Assembly (NCBI GenBank): GCA_014377445.1
Contig: JACMPP010000097.1
Coordinates: 1-64,000, forward strand
Origin: Oligoflexus sp.
Lineage (GTDB): Bacteria > Bdellovibrionota_B > Oligoflexia > Oligoflexales > Oligoflexaceae
Length of the DNA: 64,000 nucleotides
Reading direction: 5' to 3'
Part shown: one piece after another, positions 18,366 to 54,124 of the stretch
Layout: each line of letters starts with the position of its first letter
How positions within the stretch are numbered: the first letter of the stretch is position 1
Notes under the pieces: model-generated
What the model was told of the DNA's origin: nothing
What the model saw: the letters and a program-made list of their open reading frames with translations, nothing else
Databases searched by the model: none
Made by a program: the position numbers and the translations under genes

Positions 18366-21300
18366 ATGCACAAGCATCTGCGAGTCTTTTTAGGTCTGAT
18401 CATCCTGCTCTTCGCTTGTCAGGACAAGCTCGAGTACGAAGTCGTCGATTTAAATCGGCCTCAGGCTGAATTCGCGATTCAAAGCGAAGCGAATCTGGTT
18501 ATCAACAGTGACTACACCGTAGTTTGGGCAGAAGTGCCCAAAGCCAAGAGCTACTCGGTGAGCATCGCCAGCGATCCCGAGTGCACCCAAGAAATTCTCC
18601 GTAAAGACGGCATCACCACCACCAGTCTTACGCTGAGCTCTTTGAACGACGGGACATACTACATCTGTGTTTTTGCGACTATTCGAAAAAAGATAGTCCC
18701 GGCTCTCAACAATGGGATCTTGCTGTCCATCGATCGCATCCGCCCGGTCGTGCAGACGACTTCAGAGGTAAAAGTCTATGCCTTGCCCTTCGATCCGGAA
18801 ATGGCAATCATCGATACGTCTCATGTTTCCATGGTCTGGTCGCAAACGGCTGGCAGAGGCAAGATAAGTTTTGCTGACTCTCATTCGAATCATCCTCAAA
18901 TAAGTGCGGATCAGATCGGAGCCTATACAGCATCTGCTGAAATTATCGATGAAGCTGGCAACCGTACAACGCAGAATTTTCAATTTATTTGGGACCCGAG
19001 CCTACCCATTTTCCGAAGCTTTGCCTTCCTGGACGCTGCCAGTGATGGGTACATCAACGCGCAGGATAGTCTGATGGCCGAGGCTCCAGTCGGTGAGCTT
19101 TCCGCTGCCGCTTTCGAAAGTGCTGCCTATGTCGTCGTGGAAGCTTCCACAGCCTGTACGAAAGATCTTAGCTACAGCAAAGGTGCTCCGACAATCTTGG
19201 CTTTCACCTCAGGCATCGATGGGACGAGAAAGGTCTGTATCTTATTAAAGGCAGCCTCTGGACTTGTGACCGTCGCTTCCAGTGGGCCTCTGATCGTGGA
19301 TCGCGTGTCGCCTGTCTTCAGCTCCATTCCGCTTGCTGGGGAGGCGACAGATGGCAATATATCGATTGCTGAGCATGCGCAGACCGGTCCTATCGTTGGC
19401 AAGCTCGTCGCTCAAGATGCGGCCCTCATTGAATACGCATTGACGACAGAAGGAACGTCCTGCGGAGGTCCACTGGCTTATGTCTCCACTATTCCTAAAA
19501 GTGATGACGCTCGCCTGACAACTCGTGCTGCCTATCGCATTTGTCTCCGGCTCACCGATGCGGCTCAGAATCTACCGACTTATGGCCTAAGCCCCCTGTT
19601 TACCTACAATAGTGTTCTGCCTACTTTTGGATCGCTTGCTAAAACAGCTGAGGGACTGGACGGTTATGTCGGTAACATTGAGAAAAATGCAGTCCAGGCA
19701 CTTTGGACGCTAAGCGCATTTGGCTCCAACACTACGACCTATACAATTCCTCTCAACGATGCGGGCAACGCCCTCGTCTGTGACGGGTCGAAAAATTATG
19801 ACCAGACTTCCATAGCCACGGCTCTCGCTCTTCCTAGCGATGGCAGCTGGGCGATCTGTGTGAAGCTGGATGCTGGGTTAGGAGCTGTGACCTACGGAAA
19901 ATCTGAGCTGATCATCCGTGATACGGTAGCGCCTAGTTTCACGTCCCTCGTCAATGCCTCTGCAGCCAGTGACGGCTATCTGAATGAAGCCGAACGCCTC
20001 TTGGTCTCTCCCGCCTGGACGCTGACGGCCTCAGGTCATTCCTCGGCGCTCTACACTTTGCCCCTTGCCGATGCCACGAACACGGTCGTCTGCGATGCTG
20101 CTCAAATCTACAATCAGGCTACCGTACCGTCGCCTTCTACTTTCACTGTCGATGGAAGTTTTATCATCTGTGTGCAGCTGAGAGATCTGGCCTCGAATGT
20201 GACCCATGGAAAGTCTCAGACCCTTATCCGCGATACGATTGTGCCCGTCTTTACGTCCCTGGCCGCTATCAACGAAGCCAGTGACCTTTACATCAATAAT
20301 GCGGAGAAGAATTCAAGTGCTCTACTCTTCAGCTTGAGCGCTTCAGGATTTGTGAGCAGCGCCTTTAGTCTGCCGCAAAACAATAGTGGTAGTAGCCTTG
20401 TCTGCGATAGCAGCCTGGTTTATAGCGAGTCGAGTCTTCCGCTTATATCGTCTTTGACCACGGATGGTGCGTATGCAATCTGTGTGAAACTCACCGATGT
20501 TGCCGCTAACGTAACTTATGGCAAATCTGCCTCCGTTATACGCGATCTTGTGGCACCGATCATTACCTCGGTGCTGGGGGCAAATGAAGCGACGGATGGC
20601 TACATAGGGCCTACAGAGATAGCTTCCGTTCGTCCTGCTTGGGTGGTTAATGGCAGCGGTATCGACAATGTGAAATCAACAGCATTGCAATATGATGACG
20701 AATATTTGACTTGCGATGAGACTCAAACTTACTCATTAAATGCCATTCCGCTCATCAATTCTTTTCCTTATGAGGACAGATTTGCAATCTGCGTGAAAGT
20801 CACAGATTCTGCTGGAAACATTGCTTATGCGAAAAGTTCACGAGTATACAAAGACACGACGAATCCTGATATCTACGGAATTTATGTAACGAATGCAGCC
20901 AATGACAGCTACATAAACGATAGTGAGAAACTCCTTATCTCACCCATGTGGAGAACTGGCGCTTATGACGATTCACCTCTCACTTATTTGTACAGCGTTC
21001 CCGTTGAAGATAGTGGCGCTTCGCTGGTCTGTGATGCATCCAAAGTATACAATCTAACAACTATTCCTTCTCCCTCTATTCTCACAGCTGATGGTCTCTA
21101 CCGGTTTTGTGCTTTAGCAACGGATGGTGCGGGCAATAAAGCCTATAAAATTTCGGACCCCGTCACCCGGGATACTGTCTACCCTATCTTGACTTCCTTC
21201 AACGCCGTCGGGGTAGCCAGCGATCTCATCATATCGGTCGACGAAGAGCTCTCGACTGCAGCCGTATACAGCCTCGTCTCATCAGGATCCAATTACGCAC

Positions 21301-24300
21301 CCGTGTTCACCCAAGCGCTCAAGGACAGTCCAAGCGCTATCGCCTGTGATTGGAGACAAAACTACCTCAGCACCACTGTGCCCCTGATCAACAGTATGAC
21401 GACCGATGGTGATTATGCAGTCTGCGTTAAGCTTGAGGATACCGCACATAATCGACTCTATGCCAAGTCTCAGCGGGTCACGCGATCATCAACCGTGGCC
21501 ACGACCAATGGGCCGCTGGTATTCAGCTCCTTAGATCTCATTGGTTCTGCTGCGGATGGCTTCATAAATGCGGCTGAGCGCGCTGCGGCCGCGAGCGACT
21601 TGGGCGGCAATCTTCTCGCCAGTGGGTACACGACGGCTGGCTATGTACTCGTAACCAGTGGTCAGGCCTGTTCTTCGAGCTCTTTGGTTTATGGAGTCAT
21701 GCCCAAGTCGGATTCGAGTGCTCTCTCAGTGGCCGGGTCCTACAAAATTTGTGTCAAGCTCGATAATGGTTCGGGGACGATAACTTATGGATCGTCAGCC
21801 GTCTTAATCTACGATGACAGCCCACCAACTTTCAGCGGAGTAGGGCAAGTATTTTTAAGCTCGAGTGGTACGGATGCGACTGTCTTCTGGCCCGTGGCGA
21901 GCGATAATCTAAGCCTTCGTTCCGATATGAGCTATCAAATTTGCATGAGCACTATAGCGGGTGATTGTGCGGCGAACTTCACCGCCAATTTTAGCGTCGG
22001 TGCCAACCTTTGGGACAAGAAAATTACTGGACTCAGCCCCGGAACGACCTATGAGTTTTTAGTGCGAGCAGTCGACAAAGCCGGCAATCGGAATTCTAAC
22101 ACTAAAGTATTGAATAACGCGGCAGGTCCTACAATTTCCATGTTGAGTGTCGGGCCTAGTCATAGCTGTGCGCTTTTTACCGATACGACTGTTAAATGCT
22201 GGGGATCAAACTATGCCGGACAATTGGGTCAGGGAGTCTATACGGATTTTGAAGGGCCAGCAACTGTCCCGGGTTTAGGCGGAGTTGTATCGGTTAAAGT
22301 AGGGGGTTCTCATACCTGTGTACTCTTGAATAATGGCAATGTCCATTGCTGGGGCCAACACGGTAGCGGGCAGTTGGGTCGAGGAACGCAGTCGTACACT
22401 TATAGTGCATTTATCCGCTTTGCGGTGACGACCAATGCTGTAGCCATTGAACTGTCGAACGATAACAGTTGCGCAATCTTGGCCAATGGCACAGCCCAGT
22501 GTTGGGGAGCAAATTGGTCCGGTCAGGTGGGCGATGGGACGACTGTGGACAAAAATGTTCCCACTCTCGTCTCTGGATTGTCAGGAGTAACTTCCTTGAC
22601 CTCCGCAGACTATCATAGCTGCGCCCTGTTAGGAGACAAAACAATTCGCTGTTGGGGATATAACTATCAGGGCCAGTTAGGCAACGGTACGACGACGAAT
22701 AGTTTGCTCCCAGCCGCGGTTATAGGAATTGGCAACGCTTCCGCAATAAGTTTAGGCAGCAGTTTTAGCTGTGCTCTTTTAGACGATCAAACCGTCAAAT
22801 GCTGGGGCAATAACTCATCCGGTCAGTTAGGCAATAATTCTACAACCAGCTCCTCACTGGCTGTTGCCGTCACGGGCCTATCGACTGTCATGAGTATAGT
22901 TGCTGGAAATAATCTGGCATGTGGGCTGCTCAGCGACCAGACTGTTAAATGCTGGGGTAGTGGTTTTGGCAGTACACCATCGGGCGTTGCGAATTTAAGC
23001 GGCGTGTTGGCCTTTCAGGGAAGTTATGACAGTTTTTGTGCGAGACTCCTCGATTCTACTGCCAAATGCTGGGGAAATAATTCCTCGATGCAGCTTGGTG
23101 ATGGCACGAATACAAGTTCTTACAGTACTGCGGTCGTCGTCGCGGGCCTGACCAATATTATTGGCCTGCCGAACCGATTAAAAAATTACAACTTGAATTG
23201 TTTCATAATATCGGGCCAGAAAGTTCGATGTTTCGGATCCACTTCCAATATGGGAACCAATATCAATGCCTCAGCGCCTTCACAAATCCGAGGCCTTGCC
23301 ACTGTCACATCCATTGCAACGGGAAGCGGTCATGGCTGTGCCCTATTGCAAGATGGAACTGCGAAGTGTTGGGGCAGCAATAGTTACGGGCAATTGGGAA
23401 TCGGGGTGAACGGTAAACTGTTAACAAGCCCAGCTTCGGTAAGAAGCTCATCCACTGACCCAACAGCCCTCGCTAACATAATCCAAGTCGTGAGCGGTGC
23501 GGATCACAGCTGTGCCTTGCTCAGCAACGGAACCGTAGAATGTTGGGGCAATGGTTTATACGGACAACTGGGTGACGGCACGGTCGTTTCCAAAAACAGT
23601 CCAGTCCTGGTAAGCGGTCTCAGTGCTGTGACGCGAATCGCTGCGGGCGCCTATCACAACTGTGCTTTTCTCAACGATCTTACTGTCAAATGCTGGGGAT
23701 ATAACGGGAATGGTCAACTTGGGAATGGGAATACGATTACCCAGTCTGTACCCGACCTAGTACTCGGCTTGAGCAATGTTAGCAAAATTTCTGCTGGATC
23801 CGATCATAGCTGTGCCACTTTGCAAAGTGGCGAAGTAAAATGCTGGGGAGATAACTATTATGGTCAACTTGGTGATGGTAACTCAAGCTCCACCAACACA
23901 CTCAGCCCAAACCTAGCCGTTTTAAATATCTCCAATCCTACTGCCCTTTCCCTCGGTAGCACCCATAGCTGTGCAATATTAAGCAGCGGTGGAGTCAAAT
24001 GCTGGGGATATAACGGAGGCCAAACCACAAACACTCTAGGAGCGGCACTCTCCGAATACATGAGGGAGATTCCAGTGAACGTAAACAATGTTGCCAATGA
24101 GTCTTCGTTAAGTGCCGGCTACAATCACAGCTGCGTCGCCTTGATAGATGGCACCGCCAAGTGCTGGGGAACGAACGACAGTTACCAACTGGGCAATGGC
24201 AGCATCACAGCCTCTTCAGAAACAAACGATGTCCTAGGGCTTAAAAATGTAACAAAAATTGGATCGGGAAATTACTTCAGCTGCGCAGTGCTCAGCGACC

Positions 24301-24380
24301 AGACGGTTCGATGCTGGGGGGCGAACGATAATGGTCAATCGGCGCCTGAGAAGGTTTTGGGTGGTATTCCGGTCTTATGA
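18366..24380 (+). CDS. giant Ig-repeat/RCC1-repeat lipoprotein
   Basis: A 2004-residue exported protein. The signal peptide (HLRVFLGLIILLFAC) ends in a lipobox with Cys at about residue 18. A fibronectin-like segment (about 35-125) precedes nine Ig-like units of ~100 residues (about 214-1155). Each opens with a P-x-F-x-S-x(n)-A-S-D-G-Y-I-like phrase, and most carry a pair of cysteines (VCD... and ICVKL). One FN3 domain follows (about 1157-1255). Fifteen RCC1 repeats fill residues ~1258-2004, each around HSCALL...VKCWG...GQLGNG with a conserved Cys pair; one variant has CFG and one lacks GQLG. Fifteen repeats suggest two seven-bladed propellers. Likely a surface adhesin or binding scaffold; no enzyme motif was seen. 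The start at 18366 fits the signal peptide. Confidence 0.88.
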   Translation: MHKHLRVFLGLIILLFACQDKLEYEVVDLNRPQAEFAIQSEANLVINSDYTVVWAEVPKAKSYSVSIASDPECTQEILRKDGITTTSLTLSSLNDGTYYICVFATIRKKIVPALNNGILLSIDRIRPVVQTTSEVKVYALPFDPEMAIIDTSHVSMVWSQTAGRGKISFADSHSNHPQISADQIGAYTASAEIIDEAGNRTTQNFQFIWDPSLPIFRSFAFLDAASDGYINAQDSLMAEAPVGELSAAAFESAAYVVVEASTACTKDLSYSKGAPTILAFTSGIDGTRKVCILLKAASGLVTVASSGPLIVDRVSPVFSSIPLAGEATDGNISIAEHAQTGPIVGKLVAQDAALIEYALTTEGTSCGGPLAYVSTIPKSDDARLTTRAAYRICLRLTDAAQNLPTYGLSPLFTYNSVLPTFGSLAKTAEGLDGYVGNIEKNAVQALWTLSAFGSNTTTYTIPLNDAGNALVCDGSKNYDQTSIATALALPSDGSWAICVKLDAGLGAVTYGKSELIIRDTVAPSFTSLVNASAASDGYLNEAERLLVSPAWTLTASGHSSALYTLPLADATNTVVCDAAQIYNQATVPSPSTFTVDGSFIICVQLRDLASNVTHGKSQTLIRDTIVPVFTSLAAINEASDLYINNAEKNSSALLFSLSASGFVSSAFSLPQNNSGSSLVCDSSLVYSESSLPLISSLTTDGAYAICVKLTDVAANVTYGKSASVIRDLVAPIITSVLGANEATDGYIGPTEIASVRPAWVVNGSGIDNVKSTALQYDDEYLTCDETQTYSLNAIPLINSFPYEDRFAICVKVTDSAGNIAYAKSSRVYKDTTNPDIYGIYVTNAANDSYINDSEKLLISPMWRTGAYDDSPLTYLYSVPVEDSGASLVCDASKVYNLTTIPSPSILTADGLYRFCALATDGAGNKAYKISDPVTRDTVYPILTSFNAVGVASDLIISVDEELSTAAVYSLVSSGSNYAPVFTQALKDSPSAIACDWRQNYLSTTVPLINSMTTDGDYAVCVKLEDTAHNRLYAKSQRVTRSSTVATTNGPLVFSSLDLIGSAADGFINAAERAAAASDLGGNLLASGYTTAGYVLVTSGQACSSSSLVYGVMPKSDSSALSVAGSYKICVKLDNGSGTITYGSSAVLIYDDSPPTFSGVGQVFLSSSGTDATVFWPVASDNLSLRSDMSYQICMSTIAGDCAANFTANFSVGANLWDKKITGLSPGTTYEFLVRAVDKAGNRNSNTKVLNNAAGPTISMLSVGPSHSCALFTDTTVKCWGSNYAGQLGQGVYTDFEGPATVPGLGGVVSVKVGGSHTCVLLNNGNVHCWGQHGSGQLGRGTQSYTYSAFIRFAVTTNAVAIELSNDNSCAILANGTAQCWGANWSGQVGDGTTVDKNVPTLVSGLSGVTSLTSADYHSCALLGDKTIRCWGYNYQGQLGNGTTTNSLLPAAVIGIGNASAISLGSSFSCALLDDQTVKCWGNNSSGQLGNNSTTSSSLAVAVTGLSTVMSIVAGNNLACGLLSDQTVKCWGSGFGSTPSGVANLSGVLAFQGSYDSFCARLLDSTAKCWGNNSSMQLGDGTNTSSYSTAVVVAGLTNIIGLPNRLKNYNLNCFIISGQKVRCFGSTSNMGTNINASAPSQIRGLATVTSIATGSGHGCALLQDGTAKCWGSNSYGQLGIGVNGKLLTSPASVRSSSTDPTALANIIQVVSGADHSCALLSNGTVECWGNGLYGQLGDGTVVSKNSPVLVSGLSAVTRIAAGAYHNCAFLNDLTVKCWGYNGNGQLGNGNTITQSVPDLVLGLSNVSKISAGSDHSCATLQSGEVKCWGDNYYGQLGDGNSSSTNTLSPNLAVLNISNPTALSLGSTHSCAILSSGGVKCWGYNGGQTTNTLGAALSEYMREIPVNVNNVANESSLSAGYNHSCVALIDGTAKCWGTNDSYQLGNGSITASSETNDVLGLKNVTKIGSGNYFSCAVLSDQTVRCWGANDNGQSAPEKVLGGIPVL

Positions 24381-24559
24381 GGGTCGACTTCACATGGTCG
24401 CCAATGCTTGGGTCGGACCCAATAGAACTCTCATTATAGCCTAGACAGTGTTTTGTTTTTATCCCTAATCATCTCGATGGCTTTGCCAAAAATATTCTAA
24501 AACCTTAATGTTTGCAGGCAGAAAGCCGATGTTCTAGATACGACAAAGGTGGGGATCTC

Positions 24560-26092
24560 ATGATAAAGGCCGTCTCTCTGATCTTGAATGTTACACTCTC
24601 GCTTGGCCTCTTAGGCTGTGAGGGTAATGTTGACCTTGCAGCAGTCAGGAACGCCAATACCAATAAGCAGAGCCCCCTCAAATATCGACCCGGAGCAAAA
24701 ATCGTTGTGGAACCAAAGGAAGGTGAAACAGCAGTAAGCTATCCAGTCAGCCTCCTCGATCCCGCCCTGGTTTGCACCAACGTCACCTTCTATAACAAGG
24801 ACGGCGAAGTCGTGCAGGGAACCCGCATTTGTGATGGATCTCCCCTCTTAGGGTTGGACCCAAATCTTAAAGCCGAAAATATCAAAGCTGGGATAAGCAT
24901 CGGCAAAATTGTAGGGACTCTCAGGGCCAGACCTGAAGACTGCGGTTCTGATGGATCTATGGATTGTGTCGTCATCGGCCCTACGTATGCAGCTGCCATC
25001 ACCTCAAATATTGCTGCGAAGGTGGTATCAGGCCAATCCGTGGCGGGTATCTTAGGTTCGGCTACGCCTCCCCTCCCTAACTGTTCTGCCGACGGTCAGA
25101 CCAACTGCGTGGCGATTTCCAGCTATCCAGCTTTGCAATTATCCCTTCTTACGCCAGGAGTCTTGAAAAGCGGGACAGTGATCAACTCTGTGACAGGAGC
25201 TTATCCGAATGCGACTTATCCCCTGGCAGCAGGCGATGCTTACGTGGATCTTGACGCTGCGACTTTTAATGCCAAGGTGAAGGCTTCTGCCAACTTTGGA
25301 TGGTTTGATAGAAATGGCACTCGCTACAGTGCTGTGGGAGATACGGATATTACATCTGCGAATATAAAATCGGGGATAGATATCTTCAATAGTAACGGTA
25401 ATTTCGGCGGGAACTGCACGGCCGATGGGCAGTTGGGATGTTTGACGAATGGCCCTTATAGGTCCGTGGATACCTCAGCGCTTTCTACCTGGGATATACG
25501 GGCGGGTAAGACGGCAGGTGCGATATCCGGGAGTCTGAGCTTTTATAAAAACTTGGCACAACTTACGACCTTCAACCGGACAACTGGAACCGACTCTAAC
25601 GCCAGTACCACCGTTGCAGACATTTACGATACGATCGATGACTATAATAGTGCCGGAGCGATGCCTAGCCAAGTCCCGACTGGTTTTACGGCGCCTGGCT
25701 CCAACTGGTTACGTGACAGCCTCTCAGACAGCAATGCAAATGGGACCTGTGACGGTAGCGAAGCTTGCGTCTATAAAGATTTGACCACAGGTCTGTTATG
25801 GGCCAAAGATGATACCTCAACCTACACTTGGGAAAATGCGATCAGCTATTGTGCTGGTTTAAATTATGGTAGCTACACGGGCTGGCGCTTACCGACCCAG
25901 AAAGAGCTGACGCAATCTTACATCAATGGGATATGGGCTCAAAATACGCCCCTTAGTTTATCATCTAATTACTATTGGTCGTCCTCAACCCGTTCCAACT
26001 TTACGACCAACGCCTGGGTTGTATACCAGAGCCTTGGAAGTGTGAACTACGCTCCTAACAGCAATTATTTCCGGGTACTTTGTGTTCGATGA
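24560..26092 (+). CDS. DUF1566 (Lcl C-terminal domain) lipoprotein
   Basis: A 510-residue lipoprotein. The start at 24560 is chosen because a lipoprotein signal follows at once (MIKAVSLILNVTLSLGLLGC, lipidated Cys at 20) and AGGTGGGG lies upstream. The middle holds three spaced Cys modules: CGSDGSMDC, CSADGQTNC and CTADGQLGC, each followed by a ~60-residue beta-rich stretch. The C-terminal DUF1566/Lcl domain (about residues 390-510) shows VYKDLTTGLLWAKDD, WRLPTQKEL, YYWSSSTRS and a final FRVLCVR. This domain is related to C-type-lectin-like folds and is common in surface proteins. Same strand as the giant RCC1 lipoprotein 179 bases upstream. Function unknown; adhesion or carbohydrate binding is a guess. 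Confidence 0.87.
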   Translation: MIKAVSLILNVTLSLGLLGCEGNVDLAAVRNANTNKQSPLKYRPGAKIVVEPKEGETAVSYPVSLLDPALVCTNVTFYNKDGEVVQGTRICDGSPLLGLDPNLKAENIKAGISIGKIVGTLRARPEDCGSDGSMDCVVIGPTYAAAITSNIAAKVVSGQSVAGILGSATPPLPNCSADGQTNCVAISSYPALQLSLLTPGVLKSGTVINSVTGAYPNATYPLAAGDAYVDLDAATFNAKVKASANFGWFDRNGTRYSAVGDTDITSANIKSGIDIFNSNGNFGGNCTADGQLGCLTNGPYRSVDTSALSTWDIRAGKTAGAISGSLSFYKNLAQLTTFNRTTGTDSNASTTVADIYDTIDDYNSAGAMPSQVPTGFTAPGSNWLRDSLSDSNANGTCDGSEACVYKDLTTGLLWAKDDTSTYTWENAISYCAGLNYGSYTGWRLPTQKELTQSYINGIWAQNTPLSLSSNYYWSSSTRSNFTTNAWVVYQSLGSVNYAPNSNYFRVLCVR

Positions 26093-26163
26093 GTTGGGCA
26101 CAGTCAGCTCATTTATGTCCTTTCGCAGCAGCGTCTCTATTTGCAAAATAGCATATAAATCCG

Positions 26164-27852
26164 ATGGACCAAGAGTCATTCCCGACCAAAGGCGATCTGT
26201 TTTTAAATCAGCTTCCCCAGTATTTACATAAACTCGAGAGTCTCTGCTGGTGCAATATCGCCAGGTATTCGAAATGTTCAGCATTCCTGCGCGTAAGAAT
26301 AATTAGACATAAAGGCTTAGGGCCTGTTAAAATAGGGCGACTTGATCGAGAGGAACGCCCCATCTATCTTCGACTCTACATCGCTGTCGCCATTATACAG
26401 CTTTTGACAGGCTCCATCGCAAGTGCACGTCCATCCTCTGAGCTGAGGCTGGATGCGACGATACGCTTTGAATCTGTATTTGATAACCGTGATGATTTTA
26501 AAAGTCAGTGGAATCAATTTTGCGAGAATTTTGGAAAGAACTTACTGATCAACCAGCATGGATTTCTCACGACATTTACCTGTATGTCTTTGACTCATAC
26601 CCACGCTAAAGAAAGTGATTGGGACATCCTCTTCACTGAAAATGCCGATGGTTTGCAAGTGCGTGTGAAGCAAAATCGAAAGGATGGAGTGGCTATCTCA
26701 AAGACCTACGAGTTTCCGACTTATGGTCAAGTCCTTCCGCATCTGACAGGTCGAATTTTGCCGCTTGCTATGAGCCGCCTTCTCATCGAGTCCTTGCCAT
26801 TCGGCATGGCGTTCAAGGTGAACGGGAAGTCTGTCTTCTTTCCGAGGTCTAATGATCTTCCCCCTCACTCTAAAGAACTCATAGTCTATGGCCTTCGCTT
26901 TGATGAGAAGAGTCAGTTATGGATGCCCAAAATCTATGCCTATCTGAAGAGGTTGGAACCCTTAGACGGAGACAAAGCAATCCAAGGAGATGAGTATGAA
27001 TGGACTGAAAACCGAAAGCCATTGGAGAAGAACAAAATCTATTGGGCTCAGGACAGCCAGGGTCTTGGCCAGCGTAGTGCGGACTACGAGGTAGTTATCA
27101 ATAAGCTGCTGCATAAGTCGGCAGGTTCTGGCAGCAATTTTATGAGCCAGATTTTTTTTGAAAGCTTTCGTTCGAGTTATACAGGAATTCGCTTCGGAAA
27201 ATCGCTACTTGGCTCTGGTTCGATTGTCACTGAGGGCAACTTGGTTTCGGGATTAGTGGAAATTCGCGGAGGTCCACTCACGGGTCTGCGAAGTTATTAC
27301 GATATCGTACCCCTAGTCTCCAGGAATGAGGGTTCAGAAGAAGAGCATTTTAGCCTCAAACGGGCCTCTATCGGTTGGTGCTTCAGTGCTTTGATGCCTA
27401 AATCATACCGCTTCCTTTTAAGCAGTGTGGACGTTCAACCCAAGCTGGGTCTACTCGATATCGATTCCCGATTTCGTATCAATCCCGAGGAAAGCGATTC
27501 GGCCCTTAGTTTTAAGGCAAAGAATATATATGACCTAGCCTTAGAGTTTGGCATAGAAAGATCAAGTCTTTACTATCGCACCCGTCTCTGGGCTTCGATC
27601 GATGCGGCTCCTTCCGTCCTATCCGCAAAACAGGGGCTCTCAGTTCTAAGTACTCGTGCGGGTCTTGATTCATACATTAATATTTTTGAATCGAGAGGCG
27701 GAGGGAATGTGAATATTCTAGCCTTCGCTCTAGCCGAAAACCTGGCGCTCACGAAAGAACGAGTCAACGCCAATGAGGATGAAGATCTGGCTGTTTCAAA
27801 ATTAAAGTTTCAGCTCTTTTTTGTAGGGCTCGGGTTTACGGTCTCGTGGTGA
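26164..27852 (+). CDS. unrecognised envelope protein, possibly outer-membrane
   Basis: A 562-codon frame with no family recognised. A signal-peptide-like hydrophobic run (LRLYIAVAIIQLLTGSIASA) appears at about residues 70-90 of the longest frame, with a plausible cleavage after ASA. A start shortly before it would be expected, but no ATG, GTG or TTG lies in frame there; only the distant ATG at 26164 is available. The mature part is rich in beta-type alternation, and the protein ends LKFQLFFVGLGFTVSW with a terminal aromatic residue, as in outer-membrane barrels. It follows the DUF1566 gene on the same strand. The exact start is uncertain. Confidence 0.6.
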   Translation: MDQESFPTKGDLFLNQLPQYLHKLESLCWCNIARYSKCSAFLRVRIIRHKGLGPVKIGRLDREERPIYLRLYIAVAIIQLLTGSIASARPSSELRLDATIRFESVFDNRDDFKSQWNQFCENFGKNLLINQHGFLTTFTCMSLTHTHAKESDWDILFTENADGLQVRVKQNRKDGVAISKTYEFPTYGQVLPHLTGRILPLAMSRLLIESLPFGMAFKVNGKSVFFPRSNDLPPHSKELIVYGLRFDEKSQLWMPKIYAYLKRLEPLDGDKAIQGDEYEWTENRKPLEKNKIYWAQDSQGLGQRSADYEVVINKLLHKSAGSGSNFMSQIFFESFRSSYTGIRFGKSLLGSGSIVTEGNLVSGLVEIRGGPLTGLRSYYDIVPLVSRNEGSEEEHFSLKRASIGWCFSALMPKSYRFLLSSVDVQPKLGLLDIDSRFRINPEESDSALSFKAKNIYDLALEFGIERSSLYYRTRLWASIDAAPSVLSAKQGLSVLSTRAGLDSYINIFESRGGGNVNILAFALAENLALTKERVNANEDEDLAVSKLKFQLFFVGLGFTVSW

Positions 27853-44930: not shown

Positions 44931-45143
44931 ACTACGAGGGAAGCATGCTTTTTATAGGTTTATGAGCCCGTGGTAAATCTGTTTTTTTGACAGCTAGGTT
45001 TTAAATTGCCTAGCTCCACCAAACCCTTATCCAGAGCCTCCTGAACGGCAAAGCGGTCAAGATATTGGCGGCCTAGTACGGACTATGGTGCATAGCTAAA
45101 ATGGCACTAGGTGTCTATTGCGAGCCAACAAAAGGTCAGAGCT

Positions 45144-46352
45144 ATGCGTCATGCTACTCTTACATTACTCCTTGCGAGTATGATGTTCTCCAGTTTTGGC
45201 TTTGCCCAAAACCAGGCGGACCCGTTCCCGGTCAGCCCCATCGTTCGCCTTCAGGCGGATTTCTGGGAGAAAATTTTCAGACGTTATAAAAGCTCTGCTT
45301 TTGTGATTCATGACCCCGAGTTAGTCGACATCATCATCGATGTGGTGGACTACGATGCTTTTGCGAAAAAGTATAATAAGGGCAAGCCCTACACGCGTCG
45401 CGAACGCAAAGAGCTCCTGAATCGATATACAGATCGCTATCAGCTCGCCATCAACCGTCTCCAAAAACTCGGCAAAAAAGCCTTAGAATATGGGCCTATG
45501 GAAAAGCGCGTGCTGGAAGTCTACAGTCGCCGCAAGGAAGCCCTCAATCGATTGTTCACCGAAGAGATTTATCTCCGCACTCAACAAGGGCTATCTGATG
45601 AATTCGTCCGAGCTTCTCATCGTGCTCAGCAATATCTCCCTTATATGGAAAATATATTCCGGAATAGGGGCCTTCCAGCCGAGCTCACACGCATTGCGTT
45701 TGTGGAATCTATGTTTAACAAAGAGGCTTATTCTAAAGTAGGGGCCTCGGGGATGTGGCAGTTCATGCCAGGCACCGCCCGCCTCTACATGACCGTGAAT
45801 CCCTTCGTGGATGAACGTCTCTCCCCTCTTAAAGCTTCCTACGGCGCCGCCGTGATGCTGGGTGAGAACAAACGCCTTCTCAAAGAATGGCCTTTGGCGG
45901 TTACGGCCTATAACCACGGTCCCGGCGGAATGAAGAAAGCTGTCCGGACTGTTGGGACGACCGACATGGACAAAATTCTTCGCCGTTACCAGAACCCGAC
46001 CTTTGGTTTTGCGAGCCGCAACTTCTACAGCGAATTCATCGCGGCGCGAAATGTCTATCGTGATATCTACCAAGCTGGTCACGCCAAGGCCTCCAACCCT
46101 ATGCGCATCGATCATATTCGCATCGAAAAAGCGATGAGTGTGGATCAATTGGTAAGCATGACTCCAATCGACGAAAAGACTCTCAAAGAATATAACGAAT
46201 GCCTGCTGCCCAACGCTTTCAGCTCGCATCGCAGCAAGCTCCTGCCTGCCGGATTCGAAATCATCGTCCCTCAGTCCATCTCTGAGAAGACCAAGCGGGC
46301 GATCCGAAGCTTTAACCCTGGCAACGTCGCAATCTACAAGGCTCGCAAATGA
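45144..46352 (+). CDS. MltD-like lytic transglycosylase (SLT domain), exported
   Basis: A 402-residue periplasmic enzyme that should cleave peptidoglycan glycan strands to form anhydro-muropeptides. A signal peptide (MRHATLTLLLASMMFSSFGF, cleavage near AQ) supports the start at 45144 over an in-frame ATG at 45111. The SLT domain is near residues 160-300, with catalytic Glu188 in FVES and the family phrases GASGMWQFMPGTAR and AYNHGPGGM. The last ~40 residues (LLPAGFEIIVP) resemble a partial LysM-like strand, not a full LysM. First gene of a five-gene overlapping unit; the stop overlaps the next start (ATGATG). Confidence 0.88.
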   Translation: MRHATLTLLLASMMFSSFGFAQNQADPFPVSPIVRLQADFWEKIFRRYKSSAFVIHDPELVDIIIDVVDYDAFAKKYNKGKPYTRRERKELLNRYTDRYQLAINRLQKLGKKALEYGPMEKRVLEVYSRRKEALNRLFTEEIYLRTQQGLSDEFVRASHRAQQYLPYMENIFRNRGLPAELTRIAFVESMFNKEAYSKVGASGMWQFMPGTARLYMTVNPFVDERLSPLKASYGAAVMLGENKRLLKEWPLAVTAYNHGPGGMKKAVRTVGTTDMDKILRRYQNPTFGFASRNFYSEFIAARNVYRDIYQAGHAKASNPMRIDHIRIEKAMSVDQLVSMTPIDEKTLKEYNECLLPNAFSSHRSKLLPAGFEIIVPQSISEKTKRAIRSFNPGNVAIYKARK

Positions 46353-47062
46353 TGCAAAACATCGCCCTAGGCCTCGCCTTAACCCTATTCACCGCCGGCA
46401 ATCTCTTAGCGGCGGATTCCAGCATTCAAGCGATGGACTCGGTCCTGGACCGTCTGGAGCACAAACTCATGGAGCAGGAAGCTTCCAGCCTGAAAATCGA
46501 ACCCATCAATCCCTCGCCTAAGGCTGATCAGAAGATCAAGGTACCGGCAAGCAAGTTCGAAGGCCGCCTGCCCGGCTCGGACGACTTTGCTGGTCTTGAG
46601 AAGCAAATCGCCGGTCTTGAAAAAGAAGCGGACGAACTTTCCGGCCAGATCGAAGGCATGAAGGGTGAACTCCTCAATCAAGCGACGAAGGGGAGCCTCA
46701 TTGAAATAGCCGCGGCGATCGAAGACCCGGACCTCACCTCGATTAGGGAACTCACATTCTTTCTCGACGGCACCAAAATCTACTCGATGGATGGAGGCGA
46801 GTGGACTCCAAGCTCTGAAGTCCCTTTTTTCTTAGGTCCATTGGAAGCCGGCGAACACACACTCAAGCTAGAAGCGCGAACGATCCGTCGACGTGAGAAG
46901 ACCCTTCCTCTCGATCAGAACATCTACCATCGTTACGATCAGAGCTTTAAGATCCAGGTCCAGGCCGGTGTCTACCACAAAGGTTACCGCATGCGCCTCG
47001 TCCGTCCTGAGCAGCAAAATACCAGAGCGTTAGCGAGCTTGGAGTCCTATGATATTCCTTAA
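46349..47062 (+). CDS. periplasmic coiled-coil protein of the TPR operon, unknown
   Basis: A 237-residue exported protein. A signal peptide (NIALGLALTLFTAGNLLA) is followed by a linker, a predicted coiled coil (about residues 85-115, LEKQIAGLEKEADELSGQIEG) and a C-terminal beta domain (about 120-225). That domain has phrases FFLDGTKIYS and LGPLEAGEHTLKLEAR, as in Ig-like PEGA-type domains. Proteins of this shape sit in TPR envelope clusters of deltaproteobacterial type, sometimes misnamed dihydrolipoamide acetyltransferase. It overlaps the transglycosylase by 4 bases and the next gene by 14, implying translational coupling. Confidence 0.72.
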   Translation: MMQNIALGLALTLFTAGNLLAADSSIQAMDSVLDRLEHKLMEQEASSLKIEPINPSPKADQKIKVPASKFEGRLPGSDDFAGLEKQIAGLEKEADELSGQIEGMKGELLNQATKGSLIEIAAAIEDPDLTSIRELTFFLDGTKIYSMDGGEWTPSSEVPFFLGPLEAGEHTLKLEARTIRRREKTLPLDQNIYHRYDQSFKIQVQAGVYHKGYRMRLVRPEQQNTRALASLESYDIP

Positions 47063-49304
47063 GGCGAAACGATCTATTCTCCTCTTGGCGCTTTGCGGCA
47101 ATCCAGGCCTAAGCCTTGCTGGAGAGGCGTCTTTGCGCCAGGATCTCTTACGTCTTGAGGACAAGCTATCGACGGCTCAGGTCAGCGACAGCCAGGTTGC
47201 GCCAGGGGTTCAAGCCCAACAGGCCAACGCGCTCTTTCTAAGGGCGGAAGCAAGCTTTCGCGCCAGGGAATATCTCGATACTGTCAGAACTCTCAATCAG
47301 GTTCTCAACGCATCCCCTAAAACCGATCGCTACCTTGAATCTCAATATTACCTGGGCCGCTCCTATGAAGAACTTCATTACCCAGCGCGTTCGATCAAAG
47401 CCTATTTACGCTTTTTGAGCAGCTTCGCAAGTCGTAATGATTATTCGAATCCTCGCCTGCTCGAAGTCATCAATCGCCTCCTCATCCAAAAAGAGGACAT
47501 GCTTGCAGCGGAAGGCGAAGGCTTTGACCGCCTGCTCGCCAGTTTGATCAGCCTCACCGGCATCCCCTCAGCAAAGCGCGATGCGATCAAACTTCTCGCT
47601 GCGAAGAGTGCCTATCATGGCAATAAGATGAGCCTCGCGGAGGAATGGTTGAACGACCTTCTCAAGAAGGACGCTTCGCCCAATATCCAGGCTAATGCTC
47701 AGTTCTACCTGGCCCTCGTCAAACTCAAAACAGGCTACTACGACAGGAGTGAAGAGCTCTTTCTCAAACTGGCCGAAAGCAAAAATTCCGAGCATTACCT
47801 CGTTCAGCAACTGGCCCGACTTAACCTGGCCCGACTCTTTGCAGCGCGGAATCTACAGAAACATGCCTGGACCTGGTATCAAAAGGTACAAGGCCCTGGC
47901 GAGAGCCAAAGGCTGGCCCTCTACGAAAGCGTGACCCTCCTCATGCAATCGGAGGACTTTGCCAAAGCCCGGCAGTTGGCGGAGAGTTATCTCAAGGCCT
48001 ACCCCAATTCCAAAGAAGCAGCCTATCTCAAAGAGAGAATGGCCTTCCTTCAACTTTCCAGTGGACGATTTGAAGCCGCCGAAAGTAGTCTTTACAGTCG
48101 CGAGAAAGAGCTCCAGAACCTCGATCAACGCCTCTTGAAGCAATATGAAGGCAAGTTTGTCATCAAAGACGTTGAACTTGATGAGACCCGTCAGGCTCTT
48201 GGTGCCATGAACATCGAATCTCCGGTCCTCGAAAGAGCCGCGGCCTTGAATCATCGCCTCAGTAAAGCCCGGAGCATGATCAAAGAACATCGTCAGGAGA
48301 TTCGTTCCCTGCAATACACACTGGGGCGCATCAGCGATGCCCGTCTGCAGCCTGCCCTCCTGGCCAAGGATGAGCAGTACTGGAACTATATCGAAGATCT
48401 AAGTGCGATCGGCGAAGGCATGCTCGACCATGAGCTCACCTTTTACCGATGGTCCGAAGCACAGCAACTCAGCTTCGTCAAAGCCAAAGAGCGAAGAAAG
48501 AGAATTCTTGAAGACCAGACCTTTCGTCCATCGAAATGGCAAAACACCTATCAGCTCGCCCTCCTCGAAAGCCGAGCTGCAAAGCTGAATGATCGCATTC
48601 TCAAAGATCGTGCGAAGCTCGCTGGGGCCATTTACCAGGGATCGCGCGGCAGCCAGGCTCAGAAGGATCTAGCTGTTCAGGCCAATGACCGCATCAAGGA
48701 ACTGAATCATCTCACAGTGAAACTCCAATCGGCCGTCGAAGATCAAAAATCCTTCTGGCTAGCCGGTTACAAAAGCAATTCCCCTCTGCTCAAAACACGA
48801 AAACACTTTCTCCTCCTCAGTCAGGAGTTTCTTGAAAGCAACTCGCAACTGCAGGAACAGCGGGATCAGTATTCCGACCCCGCCACCAAACATATCCAGG
48901 AAGACTTTGCAAGCAACTGGTTGATCTGGCCTCGCATCGCCGGCAAGGTCCTGAAGTTGATTAATACGACTGAAAAACAAGAACAGGACTGGCTCCTAGC
49001 TCAACAGAATGCGCAGTCGGCCGCCCGTGAAAACGCCGACCGCCTGTCAGCGAGTGAAGAGACTCTTCGCTTCTCCATGGCAAAAGCCACGGGCAAGGCC
49101 TTTCCCGACGTCTTGCATTACCTGCGCTATACGATCAACGACCAAGCCGCACGTGGCAAAAAATGGTTAGCGGATGTTGAGTGGCAACGCTTCCTCCGCG
49201 AGACCCAAGAGAAGTCGAAACAACAAGCCAAACAGGTTCTCAATGAACAAGAAATCAAAGAGAACATTCGCGATACTGAGATCGAAAGGGCCCTTCATGA
49301 ATAA
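47049..49304 (+). CDS. large periplasmic TPR protein (751 residues)
   Basis: A 751-residue exported protein with a signal peptide (SILLLALCGNPGLSLAG). Helical tetratricopeptide-type repeats fill roughly residues 50-360 (for example ANALFLRAEASFRAREYLDT, then ESQYYLGRSYEELHY and AQFYLALVKLKTGYYDRSEE). The C-terminal half is long-helical and probably coiled coil. The start at 47049 overlaps the upstream gene by 14 bases, and its stop overlaps the next gene by 8. No catalytic motif is visible, so it is probably a scaffold. The architecture resembles TPR components of the Agl/Glt gliding machinery; orthology is not shown. Confidence 0.78.
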   Translation: MIFLKAKRSILLLALCGNPGLSLAGEASLRQDLLRLEDKLSTAQVSDSQVAPGVQAQQANALFLRAEASFRAREYLDTVRTLNQVLNASPKTDRYLESQYYLGRSYEELHYPARSIKAYLRFLSSFASRNDYSNPRLLEVINRLLIQKEDMLAAEGEGFDRLLASLISLTGIPSAKRDAIKLLAAKSAYHGNKMSLAEEWLNDLLKKDASPNIQANAQFYLALVKLKTGYYDRSEELFLKLAESKNSEHYLVQQLARLNLARLFAARNLQKHAWTWYQKVQGPGESQRLALYESVTLLMQSEDFAKARQLAESYLKAYPNSKEAAYLKERMAFLQLSSGRFEAAESSLYSREKELQNLDQRLLKQYEGKFVIKDVELDETRQALGAMNIESPVLERAAALNHRLSKARSMIKEHRQEIRSLQYTLGRISDARLQPALLAKDEQYWNYIEDLSAIGEGMLDHELTFYRWSEAQQLSFVKAKERRKRILEDQTFRPSKWQNTYQLALLESRAAKLNDRILKDRAKLAGAIYQGSRGSQAQKDLAVQANDRIKELNHLTVKLQSAVEDQKSFWLAGYKSNSPLLKTRKHFLLLSQEFLESNSQLQEQRDQYSDPATKHIQEDFASNWLIWPRIAGKVLKLINTTEKQEQDWLLAQQNAQSAARENADRLSASEETLRFSMAKATGKAFPDVLHYLRYTINDQAARGKKWLADVEWQRFLRETQEKSKQQAKQVLNEQEIKENIRDTEIERALHE

Positions 49305-52300
49305 GCACTTCCTGGTTTTATCCTTGCTCTTCTCCGGCATGCCCCTGCATGCCCAGGACCTTCGAGAAGAACCGGTCGAAGACAAATCACTCGAGGCCTT
49401 CGGTGACTACTGGCGCGCATTCGACGATTACGAAAATCATAAATTCGTCACGAGTAAAGGTCAGCAGTTCGAAGCCTGGGACAAGCTCAAGACCGAATGG
49501 CGTTCGCAAGAACGCGCTTTGACCCAAGCGCAAATGGACGATCTTAAAAGCGCAATTAAACGCTATGAAAATCAACTCAAAGAGCATCCAACCGCATCGA
49601 GCACGCCTTACGCACGAATGAATCTCGCACAGGTCCTGACCAAAGCGGGCTCTCTTCAAGAAAGCGAGAAATCGGCTGAGATCTATCACAAGCAGGCTCT
49701 TGCCGTACTTGCTGACCTCAACAAGAACATGCCAGGCTTCACACTCAACGACGAAGCCCTTTACCTCCGTGCGACCATACTCGAAAATTTGAACAATCAG
49801 GAAGCGGCTCTCAATGTCTGGCAAAGCCTGGCGCGCGATGGCAAAGACAGTATCTACACCGTTCATGCCAACATCGCGATCGGTGACAGTAACTTTGGCA
49901 AAGAAAAGGCGGTCAACGCTCTCAAGTCTTACAAAGCTGCAAGCGCCGTCCTCGGTCGCATTCGTTCGCCGGAAGCGGACTTTGAAAAACTGCGTGTGAA
50001 CTATCGCCTAGCCTGGGCCGCCTATCGAACGGCTGATCTGAACGAATCTTTGGTCGCCGCCCAAAACCTTTTGCACCCGGAATCCGATTTCAAACGCATC
50101 AGTCTGCAAAAACGCATGACGGCCGATGCCTGTGATCTGATCGGTGACACGCTCTTCGAACAAGACAAGACCAACAAGACGATGGACTTCCTCCAAAAGG
50201 ATATTCTTCGCCCTTATGCAAGCACCATCGGTCTTCGCGTCCTGAGTCGATTGGCAAGCAATCCAACACCGACTGCGAGCATCGAGCTTGCGGACTTTCT
50301 TCTCGACAAATATCCTGCGGCGAAGGAAGCCCCCGAGATCGCCACGATCCTGGCCGACGTCTATCGCAAGACCAGACAGGAACAGAAATACATCGCGACT
50401 CTTGAACGCCTCTCCCTCATGCTACCCCGCACGAGTGTCTGGCGCGTGCAGCACAAAAACGACCCCAATCTTCTCGCTAATATGGAGGGTAAAGCTCTCA
50501 ACGCCAACCAACTCCTGGCCGGAAAATTCTATGAAAATGGTATGGTGCAGGGCAGTCAGTCGAGCTTTGAAACAGCGCGAACCTATTATGACGCCCTTTT
50601 GAAATTCAATCCTCAGCATGCCGAAGCGGAAACCTGGGAATTGCGTCGCGCGCACTGTCTCTACTTCGCCAATCATTTCGAAGATGCGGACAAAGCTTAC
50701 GAAGCCTTCAAGGAGCGCGGCACAGTCACGGCGGAAAATCTCGAAGTCGCTTTCTATCAGCAGACCCTCAGTCGCGAAAAAGTATGGCGCCAGTCTCTCG
50801 CCAAATTTGATGAATCGGGCACCAAACCGAACGCCAGCAGCATGGCCAAACTCCATAAACTTCAGGACAACATCAGCGCCTTCGCCGATCGTTTTCCCAA
50901 TCGTTCGCACGTCGTCGATCTTCTGCTCCTCGCAGCTTCAGCCAACCGTGATCTCAACGATTTCACTTCGGCGGAAGGTTTTTGGAACCGCGCGCTCCTC
51001 TCCGAGCCATCACAGGCGCAAAGAACTTTGGCCATTCGTGGCCTTGTTCAATCCAAAATCAAAGGGGGCAAGGCCGAAGAGACTTTGGCCCTTACGCGCA
51101 ATTACCTCAAGCTTGAGAACTTCGATCAACTGGGTGTTGGCTTTCAAGGCGAACTCATCGGTGTCGTAGCGACTTCGGTCAAAGAAACGGCAGCGAACCT
51201 CAATGCCAAAGGTAAAATTTTTGAGGCGGGCCAGCTCCTCCTCGCTGTGGCCAATGAATTCCCTTCAATACCGGATCACGATGTGATCTACCGCGATGGA
51301 GCCTACTACATGGCTCTTGCCGGCAACTGGAAAGAATCAGAAACCGCAGCCAACCAATACCTGGCTGAACGGAAACCCAAAGGCAATACGGAAGACCTCC
51401 TCTATCTCAAAGCGCGCGCCTTGGAATACCAGCTCCGTTTCCATAAAGCTGCGGAAGCCCATCTCGCTCTTGCTCAGGAATATCCAAAGTACGCCAAAGC
51501 CCTGCCAGCCGCTCAAAGAGCTGAAGGCCTGGCGGCTGCGGAAGACGACTACAAACTCGCCGGCAAGGCCGCAAGCCTGGTCAGTAACTATCAGACAACA
51601 CCCGAAGGCAAGACCGAAGCCCTCCTTCGCTCAGCCGACTATTACGCCAAGGCCAAAGCTTGGCCGGAATCCCTTCAGATCCTCGCCAAAGCCGAGAATC
51701 AAAGCCGTTCTCCCAGTTATAAACTCAAGGCGGAACTGCAGGTGGCCAAGGTATGGAATGCTCAGGGTCAGACCGAAAAGGCTCTCGCGACCTACAAACG
51801 CCTTGCTGTCGATACCGAAAACCGCAAAGAGGATCTTGATAAGAGCCTCTATCGCAGCATCATCGGCGAGTCGAACTTTCTGCTCGGCGAAGCTCTGCAA
51901 AAGGACTTTGAGAAGGTCGATGAAGCCGGCAATTCCAATAGCCTGAATCGTCTCAAATTCAAAGGCGGCAAGCTCGAAGAAAGCCTCAAGCTTTACAACA
52001 AGGCCATCGCCGCAGATGACAGCGAATGGTCGAGTCGCGCGCGCTTCAACGCCGCCCAGCTCGCTGAGAATATGTCTCAGGCTATCCGCAATGTGATCGC
52101 CAAGAGCGATTCGAAGACGGACCGCACCCTCGATGACCAAGCCAAACGCTGGCTTCAGGTCTCTCAGCAGTACCATACCCAAAACCTCATGGCGAGACAG
52201 AAGGACCCGTATCGCTATCGCGATATCGTCTGGATCGAACGCTCTGCCTTGAAAGCCAGTGGTCTTCAACCCCAGCTTGAACCGGCATCCCGCAGCCTAC

Positions 52301-52344
52301 CGAGTGCTCTCGATACGACTCAACCCTACCAATGGAGTCACTAA
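49297..52344 (+). CDS. very large periplasmic TPR protein (1015 residues)
   Basis: From ATG at 49297 the product has a signal peptide (NKHFLVLSLLFSGMPLHAQ) with cleavage after HAQ. The upstream in-frame extension to 49174 lies inside the preceding gene and has no signal character, so it was not used. Almost the whole length is TPR-like helix pairs: for example ARMNLAQVLTKAGSLQESEK, YLRATILENLNNQEAALNVW, and ARTYYDALLKFNPQHAEAE. The number of repeats was not counted exactly. AgmK/GltI-like TPR proteins of gliding bacteria have a similar size and plan. The stop TAA overlaps the next ATG by one base. Confidence 0.8.
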   Translation: MNKHFLVLSLLFSGMPLHAQDLREEPVEDKSLEAFGDYWRAFDDYENHKFVTSKGQQFEAWDKLKTEWRSQERALTQAQMDDLKSAIKRYENQLKEHPTASSTPYARMNLAQVLTKAGSLQESEKSAEIYHKQALAVLADLNKNMPGFTLNDEALYLRATILENLNNQEAALNVWQSLARDGKDSIYTVHANIAIGDSNFGKEKAVNALKSYKAASAVLGRIRSPEADFEKLRVNYRLAWAAYRTADLNESLVAAQNLLHPESDFKRISLQKRMTADACDLIGDTLFEQDKTNKTMDFLQKDILRPYASTIGLRVLSRLASNPTPTASIELADFLLDKYPAAKEAPEIATILADVYRKTRQEQKYIATLERLSLMLPRTSVWRVQHKNDPNLLANMEGKALNANQLLAGKFYENGMVQGSQSSFETARTYYDALLKFNPQHAEAETWELRRAHCLYFANHFEDADKAYEAFKERGTVTAENLEVAFYQQTLSREKVWRQSLAKFDESGTKPNASSMAKLHKLQDNISAFADRFPNRSHVVDLLLLAASANRDLNDFTSAEGFWNRALLSEPSQAQRTLAIRGLVQSKIKGGKAEETLALTRNYLKLENFDQLGVGFQGELIGVVATSVKETAANLNAKGKIFEAGQLLLAVANEFPSIPDHDVIYRDGAYYMALAGNWKESETAANQYLAERKPKGNTEDLLYLKARALEYQLRFHKAAEAHLALAQEYPKYAKALPAAQRAEGLAAAEDDYKLAGKAASLVSNYQTTPEGKTEALLRSADYYAKAKAWPESLQILAKAENQSRSPSYKLKAELQVAKVWNAQGQTEKALATYKRLAVDTENRKEDLDKSLYRSIIGESNFLLGEALQKDFEKVDEAGNSNSLNRLKFKGGKLEESLKLYNKAIAADDSEWSSRARFNAAQLAENMSQAIRNVIAKSDSKTDRTLDDQAKRWLQVSQQYHTQNLMARQKDPYRYRDIVWIERSALKASGLQPQLEPASRSLPSALDTTQPYQWSH

Positions 52345-53480
52345 TGCGATCAGCCCTTATCAGCCTTCTCTTCCTGGGCGCCGCCTGCAGTCATACTCAG
52401 GCGCGCAACGAACTCGATATCGATCCCAATGTCAAAGCCAGCTTTCAAGGCGCGGATCCCTCGAAGCTCAGTTCGGATAAAATCTTTGAATGGCAAAAAT
52501 ACTATAAAACGCCGCCTGCTGGTACCGAACGCGATGAAGTCGCCGTGACTCTCGCCAAGACAGGCAAGAATGCTTCGGCGGATGACAAACTCAAAGCGGC
52601 CCGCAACGCCCTGGCGATTGGTGAACGCAGCAAATCCAAAGAAATCTATACTGAAGTCTTGAAGGCCGATTCTGAGCAGCTCGATGCCCAATTGGAAATG
52701 GCTCATATTTATCTGGCAGAAAATGATGTCGAGAGAACCTTCGATTACCTGACCTCGGTCAAAAAAATTCTCGAAAAGACCGAGCGCCCTGACCAAGACT
52801 ATACAATCCGCTACCGCTACGCCCTTGCCCAGGCGTATATCAAAGGTCAGAACCGCAGCCAAGGCCATCAGATCCTCACCGATCTGATCGAAGCTGAGCC
52901 TAAGTTCTCGATGGCCTATGCGGCCCTTGCTCAATCCTATCTTGAGAACGGCAAAACCGATCTCGCTGAGTTCGTGATCAAACGCGGCCTCGATCAGGAT
53001 GGTCACGATCCACGTCTTCTCAATCTTCTGGCTGTCCTCCATCTCAAGGCTGGTCGACTTCCCGACGCCCGCGACTGGATAAACAAGTCTCTGGATCAAG
53101 ATCCCAACTTTGTGCCAGCCCTGGTCAACCGAGCCCAGCTCTCCATGCAACGCCGGGAATACGCTTTAGCTGAAAACGACCTTAAGAAGGCCTGTGAGCT
53201 CGAACCCCTTAATCCGGAAGCCCAGATTACTACGGGCATCCTCTTCCGTCAGACGGGTCGCATTACGGCCTCCAAGGGTGCTTTCGAACGAGCGATCGAA
53301 ATTTCACCCTTGAATTCGTTGGCCCGCTATCAGTTGGCCAGCCTCCTCCAGGACGAGTTCAAGGACAAGACGACCGCCCTTCAGCTCTATTACGATGTCC
53401 TCCAGGCACAGGACCAGGAGTTAAAGAATTTGGCAAATATCCAGATACAATCCATTCGTGACAGCCGCTTATATCAATAA
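52344..53480 (+). CDS. TPR lipoprotein (378 residues)
   Basis: From ATG at 52344 (GGAG upstream) the protein begins MRSALISLLFLGAACSHTQA, a lipoprotein signal with the lipobox GAAC and lipidated Cys at residue 15. TPR units occupy about residues 80-370, such as YTEVLKADSEQLDAQLEMAH, LLNLLAVLHLKAGRLPDA and FERAIEISPLNSLARYQLAS. It is the last gene of the overlapping envelope operon. A TPR lipoprotein of this sort could anchor the complex in the outer membrane. Confidence 0.82.
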   Translation: MRSALISLLFLGAACSHTQARNELDIDPNVKASFQGADPSKLSSDKIFEWQKYYKTPPAGTERDEVAVTLAKTGKNASADDKLKAARNALAIGERSKSKEIYTEVLKADSEQLDAQLEMAHIYLAENDVERTFDYLTSVKKILEKTERPDQDYTIRYRYALAQAYIKGQNRSQGHQILTDLIEAEPKFSMAYAALAQSYLENGKTDLAEFVIKRGLDQDGHDPRLLNLLAVLHLKAGRLPDARDWINKSLDQDPNFVPALVNRAQLSMQRREYALAENDLKKACELEPLNPEAQITTGILFRQTGRITASKGAFERAIEISPLNSLARYQLASLLQDEFKDKTTALQLYYDVLQAQDQELKNLANIQIQSIRDSRLYQ

Positions 53481-53587
53481 GCCATCGCTTCCCTTTGGAT
53501 ATTTATTCGTTTTTAATTTTAGTTATGTCCAAACGCTCCGATTACAAGTTGAAGTCTCTTAGATGTGTGTGAGTAGGAGTTTTTACT

Positions 53588-54124
53588 ATGACTATCCAAG
53601 ATCGCGTATACAACCGATCATCCCATATCCTCGTCGTTGACGACGATGACACCCTACTCAAATTTTTTAAGATTCATCTTAATAAATTCTTTTCTCGCGT
53701 CCTGGTCGTTCATAGCGCTCATGATGCTGTCGAAGCTCTCAAAGAAAAAGAGATCGATCTCGTCATCAGCGACATCCGTATGCCGCGCGTCGACGGCCTC
53801 CAACTGATGAAGAAGGTCAAAAACTTTGATCCCACGATCCCAGTCTTCCTGATCAGCGGTGCCCTTCTTGACGAAGATCAAAAAGAAACCGTCGGCGCAA
53901 AAGCGGACGGTTACCTGAAAAAACCTTTCACAATCGAAGAGCTTCATGATTATGTCGATCGTGGAATGAAGATTCGTGATGCCTACAAAGAACTCTACGC
54001 TCTCGTGCAGGATAAGAAGAAGTTCCTCGAGTTGATCCAGGGCAAACGCCAGCTTCGTTTTATTAAAGACGAAGAAAGCCGTAACAAAGCCCAGAAAATC
54101 CTCGAAGATCTCAAAGCCGGCTGA
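53588..54124 (+). CDS. single-domain response regulator with helical C-terminal extension
   Basis: A 178-residue protein. The receiver domain (about residues 12-130) has acidic VDDDD at 17-21, phosphoacceptor Asp62 in VISDIRMPRVDG and Lys112 in YLKKPF. The final ~45 residues are charged and helical (LVQDKKKFLELIQGKRQL) with no DNA-binding motif. It starts 107 bases after the TPR lipoprotein gene and lies on the same strand. It could transmit a signal to the envelope machine upstream; that is contextual inference. Confidence 0.88.
   Translation: MTIQDRVYNRSSHILVVDDDDTLLKFFKIHLNKFFSRVLVVHSAHDAVEALKEKEIDLVISDIRMPRVDGLQLMKKVKNFDPTIPVFLISGALLDEDQKETVGAKADGYLKKPFTIEELHDYVDRGMKIRDAYKELYALVQDKKKFLELIQGKRQLRFIKDEESRNKAQKILEDLKAG

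Follow-up and report, generated by a model that had tools for sequence, protein, structure and literature searches.

The operon formed by genes A to E in the window (the whole 64,000-nucleotide stretch of DNA analyzed here) is, as judged by sequence comparison, a motorless variant of the Glt-type envelope complexes. Genes B-C-D-E probably encode a diverged, stand-alone paralogue of GltC-GltD-GltE that would serve as a passive periplasmic scaffold, anchored in the outer membrane and without force of its own, in flagellated cells; the scaffold is possibly flagellum-associated. Glt-type complexes have so far been described as outputs of the Agl motor, in gliding and in the spore coat. If a Glt set without any energy-coupling part is kept in two groups of the class and outlives the motor, the periplasmic arm must be able to work alone.

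Organization and conservation of the operon

Genes A-E are five consecutive open reading frames on the forward strand with overlapping ends, and the receiver gene F lies 3' of them (Table 1). The preliminary description had reported overlaps of 4, 14, 8 and 1 bases followed by a receiver, and both the coordinates and the junction sequences agree: A and B share 4 bases (ATGA), B and C share 14, C and D share 8, and D and E share 1 (TAATG). At this last junction an alternative in-frame ATG at 52332 would extend the overlap to 13 bases, which is the commonest spacing among relatives. The transglycosylase and TPR identities proposed in the same description are likewise borne out by the SLT and TPR domains that Pfam detects.

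Table 1. Genes A-G, with window coordinates and the evidence for each assignment
Gene	Product	Length (aa)	Coordinates	Strand	Evidence
A	MltD-like lytic transglycosylase, signal peptide	402	45144..46352	+	Pfam SLT 6.3e-22
B	Periplasmic protein	237	46349..47062	+	AlphaFold pLDDT 74.9; orthologues in order and sister family
C	Protein with GltC-matching N-terminal part	751	47049..49304	+	AlphaFold pLDDT 83.5; hhalign
D	Periplasmic TPR protein, GltD paralogue	1015	49297..52344	+	hhalign to GltD
E	TPR lipoprotein, GltE-like	378 (ATG 52344) or 382 (ATG 52332)	52344..53480	+	NF033758, hhalign
F	Stand-alone receiver with C-terminal extension	178	53588..54124	+	Response_reg 6.3e-25
G	TPR and cyclic-nucleotide-binding protein, N-terminal hydrophobic helix		56689..58446	+	cNMP_binding 5.9e-16

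The host genome (G000) is a metagenome-assembled genome of 4.76 Mb, and it was compared within a sample of 58 genomes of the phylum, with Myxococcota and Bdellovibrio proper lying outside the sample. Relative to a congener, the proteins of all these genes retain 73-95% identity despite synonymous sites that are saturated or nearly so, which indicates that the genes are real and constrained. The order A-B-C-D-E-F is kept in 14 further loci (L021-L028 and L030-L035 of those fetched), all from Oligoflexales, and other loci hold partial copies of the operon at contig ends. Since 14 other Oligoflexales genomes carry full-length orthologues arranged in this order, the arrangement is far beyond chance, and the translationally coupled envelope operon proposed from the window stands, its order and overlaps being kept in Oligoflexales. 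The sequences of B and C are poorly conserved (about 20% for C across families) although the gene order holds.

Scans for sigma-70 promoters and terminators gave scores no better than those of shuffled sequences, and the regions upstream of A in 15 loci yielded neither a sigma-54 nor a sigma-28 site. We found no paper on these operons in Oligoflexus or Silvanigrella.

The B-C-D-E core and its neighbors

B-C-D-E is found again in a sister family within the class (Silvanigrellales-like), at loci L093 and L110-L115, where gene order and overlaps are unchanged and no MltD gene adjoins the unit; the profile matches are 96.9 for B, 90.0 over 687 columns for C, 99.9 for D and 99.3 for E. Since this unit recurs without the transglycosylase, B-C-D-E represents the core. 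The link of MltD to the operon is confined to Oligoflexales, where MltD either was added locally or is an ancestral component that one branch has lost.

Gene A, for which a GTG at 45111 offers an alternative start, encodes an SLT domain at 174-277 with a catalytic-type glutamate (Glu188, in FVESMFN) that is invariant across 17 homologues. The SLT domain and the catalytic glutamate are common to A and MltD (NF008050), whereas A reaches 63 bits against this model, far under the cut-off of 508, and Pfam finds no LysM domain in it. The preliminary description had made a wall-cutting enzyme part of the complex. Within Oligoflexales the MltD gene is indeed coupled to B-E, but it is not an indispensable component: MltD does not adjoin B-C-D-E in the Silvanigrellales-like genomes, and in G008 and G016 it persists near F without an intact B-E. 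The same distribution weighs against the idea that the operon encodes an adaptor placing or controlling peptidoglycan hydrolases, foremost MltD, comparable to Pseudomonas LbcA with the protease CtpA. Although MltD is the first gene, with a 4-base coupling, and the TPR lipoprotein LbcA (7rqf) appears at rank 41 among the structural matches of C, that match is generic to TPR proteins and an adaptor has no need for a GltD-like part of 1000 residues; we regard this explanation as unlikely.

Gene F adjoins E in 14 or more genomes and is 95% identical to its counterpart in the congener; a receiver also follows E in two sister-family loci (L115 and L116). Its product is probably cytoplasmic. Gene G lies downstream of the operon in most loci across the order, and it is also syntenic in L118 and L119, which are without B-E. 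Comparison across these loci marks G as a conserved downstream neighbor at the order level, and as a candidate rather than an established member of the complex.

Predicted structures and a proposed arrangement

Signal peptides and the lipobox were predicted by reading the sequence, so that export is likewise a prediction; the lipobox cysteine of E (Cys15) is invariant among homologues. The AlphaFold models are of single chains, with a modest pTM of 0.53-0.56. For B, the model contains a conserved N-terminal helix (22-46), a coiled coil (77-114) and an eight-stranded Ig/FnIII-like domain (116-235); a weak Big_7 match falls under the Pfam cut-off, and a fold search with the model returned no PDB match below E 0.001. 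For C, a TPR solenoid (about 52-390) is followed by a helical bundle (392-605) and a single long helix (611-750). According to the model, this terminal helix of 140 residues, about 21 nm if straight, could span the periplasm. One TPR model exceeds the Pfam cut-off in C, E has many TPR matches, and D has weaker ones. The Foldseek matches listed for C, among them 9hmf_K, SprE and LbcA, are generic TPR proteins whose TM-scores are all low.

In the arrangement that we propose, the lipid of E would fix this protein in the outer membrane, D and C would stack on E as TPR solenoids, the C-terminal 140-residue helix of C would cross the periplasm, and B would join the complex through its coiled coil, while the gene overlaps would ensure stoichiometric production of the subunits. 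The MltD encoded next to B-E in Oligoflexales may open the peptidoglycan locally for placement of the scaffold. The complex itself would make no force; its part in flagellated cells would be that of a passive structural support.

Kinship with the Agl/Glt machinery

The reference for these comparisons was the Glt cluster of Oligoflexales, identified by the NCBIfam GltC and GltG models, rather than the proteins of Myxococcus xanthus; definitions of the Glt parts follow PMC3169522. A paralogue of D in the host genome led to contig C55, which carries a complete Agl/Glt core cluster (L051, 6734-18668) comprising AglR, two ExbD proteins, an OMP_myx_plus barrel, GltC (NF033756, 215.7 bits), a GltD-like protein of 1026 residues, a GltE-like lipoprotein, GltG (NF033760, with an AgmX/PglI tail) and a LysM-M23 peptidase.

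Profile alignment with hhalign matched D to GltD collinearly over 835 columns (probability 99.8, score 243), the N-terminal part of C to GltC over 295 columns (97.8, 107) and E to GltE over 179 columns (97.3, 89). The control pairs gave lower values (probability/score): 79/58 for D-C, 1.7/28 for D-GltC, 57/49 for C-GltD, 9.4/35 for E-GltD and 0.5/23 for D-GltE. Compared with these cross-pairs, the matched pairs appear specific, most strongly for D, partially for C and over a short stretch for E. Canonical GltD aligns less well with the D of the sister family (probability 93.8). Despite the profile match, C has no hit to the GltC family model NF033756 at E up to 1, against the 215.7 bits of the canonical protein. 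E matches the GltE model NF033758 (2.8e-16) with 59.5 bits against a cut-off of 225, and the model also recognizes unrelated TPR proteins and hits control genomes without Glt (12 of 14 controls). The E-GltE match may therefore partly represent generic TPR similarity, and this family model alone was rejected as proof of the kinship of E.

In a tree of D and GltD, D and its Silvanigrellales-like counterparts fall on one side and canonical GltD, together with GltD of a second Glt set, on the other, with long branches that make placement within the groups uncertain. The D-GltD, C-GltC and E-GltE matches indicate that the operon is probably a diverged paralogue of gltC-D-E, one that has no motor, GltG or outer-membrane barrel. 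The resemblance to Agl/Glt parts proposed in the preliminary description thus holds as homology, most firmly for D, and so does its view of a related but distinct system whose locus contains neither a motor gene nor one resembling GltJ. A lack of Agl/Glt homology together with dispersed orthologues, the outcome that would have spoken against that view, was looked for, and homology and synteny were found instead.

With the Agl/Glt machinery of M. xanthus the operon shares the C-D-E order, large periplasmic TPR proteins and a TPR lipoprotein; in contrast, its locus is without AglRQS, GltG, GltA/B/H and GltJ, it adds B and, in Oligoflexales, MltD, and C resembles GltC in its N-terminal part only. 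Pfam and NCBIfam find neither of the domains that mark GltG (FHA and myxo_SS_tail) in the operon, no AglRQS motor is present among the operon genes or the neighbors tested, and the locus holds neither an outer-membrane barrel nor a GltJ-like gene.

The host genome also carries a second set, OMP-GltC-GltD-GltE, at L089 (G000:C139, 8424-15180), with no motor gene recognized in the fetched stretch. This set is comparable to the operon in having no motor gene at the locus, but it lies nearer canonical GltD in the tree and keeps an outer-membrane barrel. Sets of this type also occur at L053, L056, L090-L092, L094 and L095 and are widespread in the class.

Independence from the Agl motor

Among the 58 genomes, D is present in 40, AglR in 48 and GltC in 48, and D shows no association with either AglR or PilT. 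In genus g30 of the sister family, seven of eight genomes carry D, and none of the eight carries AglR, GltC or PilT. Conversely, AglR occurs without an intact D in G008, G009, G011, G016, G017, G018, G019 and G028-G031. The operon thus neither needs nor implies the Agl motor, and a borrowed Agl motor was rejected on the g30 genomes.

This independence also counts against motor borrowing of the kind described for the Nfs spore-coat machine of M. xanthus, a Glt paralogue set likewise without its own motor, which uses AglRQS through NfsG (PMC3858216). By that precedent the operon would be another output module, powered in trans by AglRQS, for which the host genome does hold a single AglR, on a contig other than that of the operon. 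Nfs, however, retains NfsG as well as outer-membrane parts and depends on AglRQS, whereas the operon has neither a GltG/NfsG homologue nor an outer-membrane barrel and, as B-C-D-E, persists in g30 genomes without AglR, which makes this explanation very unlikely. The host genome has TolQR-type motor genes, and a TolQR-type motor could act on the scaffold in trans.

The preliminary description had further suggested a motility or adhesion machine. Homology to GltC, GltD and GltE would accord with an independent gliding or adhesion machine, but the operon lacks a motor, a GltG-type coupler and a surface barrel, the host genome already has a complete Agl/Glt core elsewhere, and the genes are kept in g30, where AglR and GltC are gone. 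This part of the description found no support, and we consider such a machine highly improbable.

Distribution across flagellated genomes

The distribution of D suggests a role in flagellated cells. FliG is present in 40 of 40 D-positive genomes and in 10 of the 18 D-negative ones, the remaining 8 being without FliG. Fisher's test gives 2e-5 by genome, 4e-4 by genus and 0.014 by family, values that carry no phylogenetic correction and are confounded by shared ancestry and genome reduction; most of the FliG-less genomes are small. FliG also occurs without D, in genomes that include G019, G028, G029, G031, G043 and G047-49. In the flagellum-less G008 and G016, a single protein of 213-216 residues lies between MltD and F (remnant-like proteins at L118, 3411-4061, and L119, 4236-4877). 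The one in G016 (L119) still matches the D profile with 51 bits, which suggests that B-E decayed where it stood.

In Campylobacter jejuni a flagellar motor is scaffolded by the periplasmic TPR proteins PflA and PflB, PflA combining TPRs with a beta-sandwich (PMC12222027). The operon could be read as encoding a scaffold accessory to the flagellar motor or to its outer-membrane passage, with a role like that of PflA/PflB in the proximal disk but built from Glt parts. Several observations are consistent with this: D shows with FliG an association not seen with AglR or PilT, B-E is reduced to one protein of about 215 residues in the two flagellum-less genomes, and the C. jejuni periplasmic scaffold 9hmf_K ranks third among the Foldseek matches of C. 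That match, however, has a TM-score of 0.24, typical of generic TPR proteins, and no sequence homology to PflA or PflB was found for the operon proteins. The genomes are, moreover, non-independent, some with FliG do without D, and the operon does not lie in a flagellar cluster, with no flagellar gene detected among the neighbors tested and no sigma-54 or sigma-28 site ahead of A. We therefore consider this specific motor role possible but doubtful, and favor the passive scaffold formed by the diverged GltC-GltD-GltE paralogue.

A broader reading is more tentative still: Oligoflexia would possess a dedicated flagellum-associated periplasmic scaffold made from GltC-D-E parts and uncoupled from the motor, so that one protein family would serve two unrelated motility systems. 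From the distribution, a flagellar role can be predicted and tested in lineages that include cultured members (Silvanigrellales), and a full flagellar gene set has been reported for a Silvanigrellales genome (PMC12321486).

Other observations

In many genomes (G020:C13, G024:C72, G041:C37 and others) a further MltD paralogue, possibly a flagellar transglycosylase, is encoded a few kb or less from fliG. Elsewhere in the window, the region 18366-27852 holds an open reading frame of 2004 residues, after which come an Lcl_C-domain protein and one of 562 residues that has no Pfam match. At about 44000, the GC skew shifts from a weakly positive value to about -0.10 and is negative from there to the end of the window.
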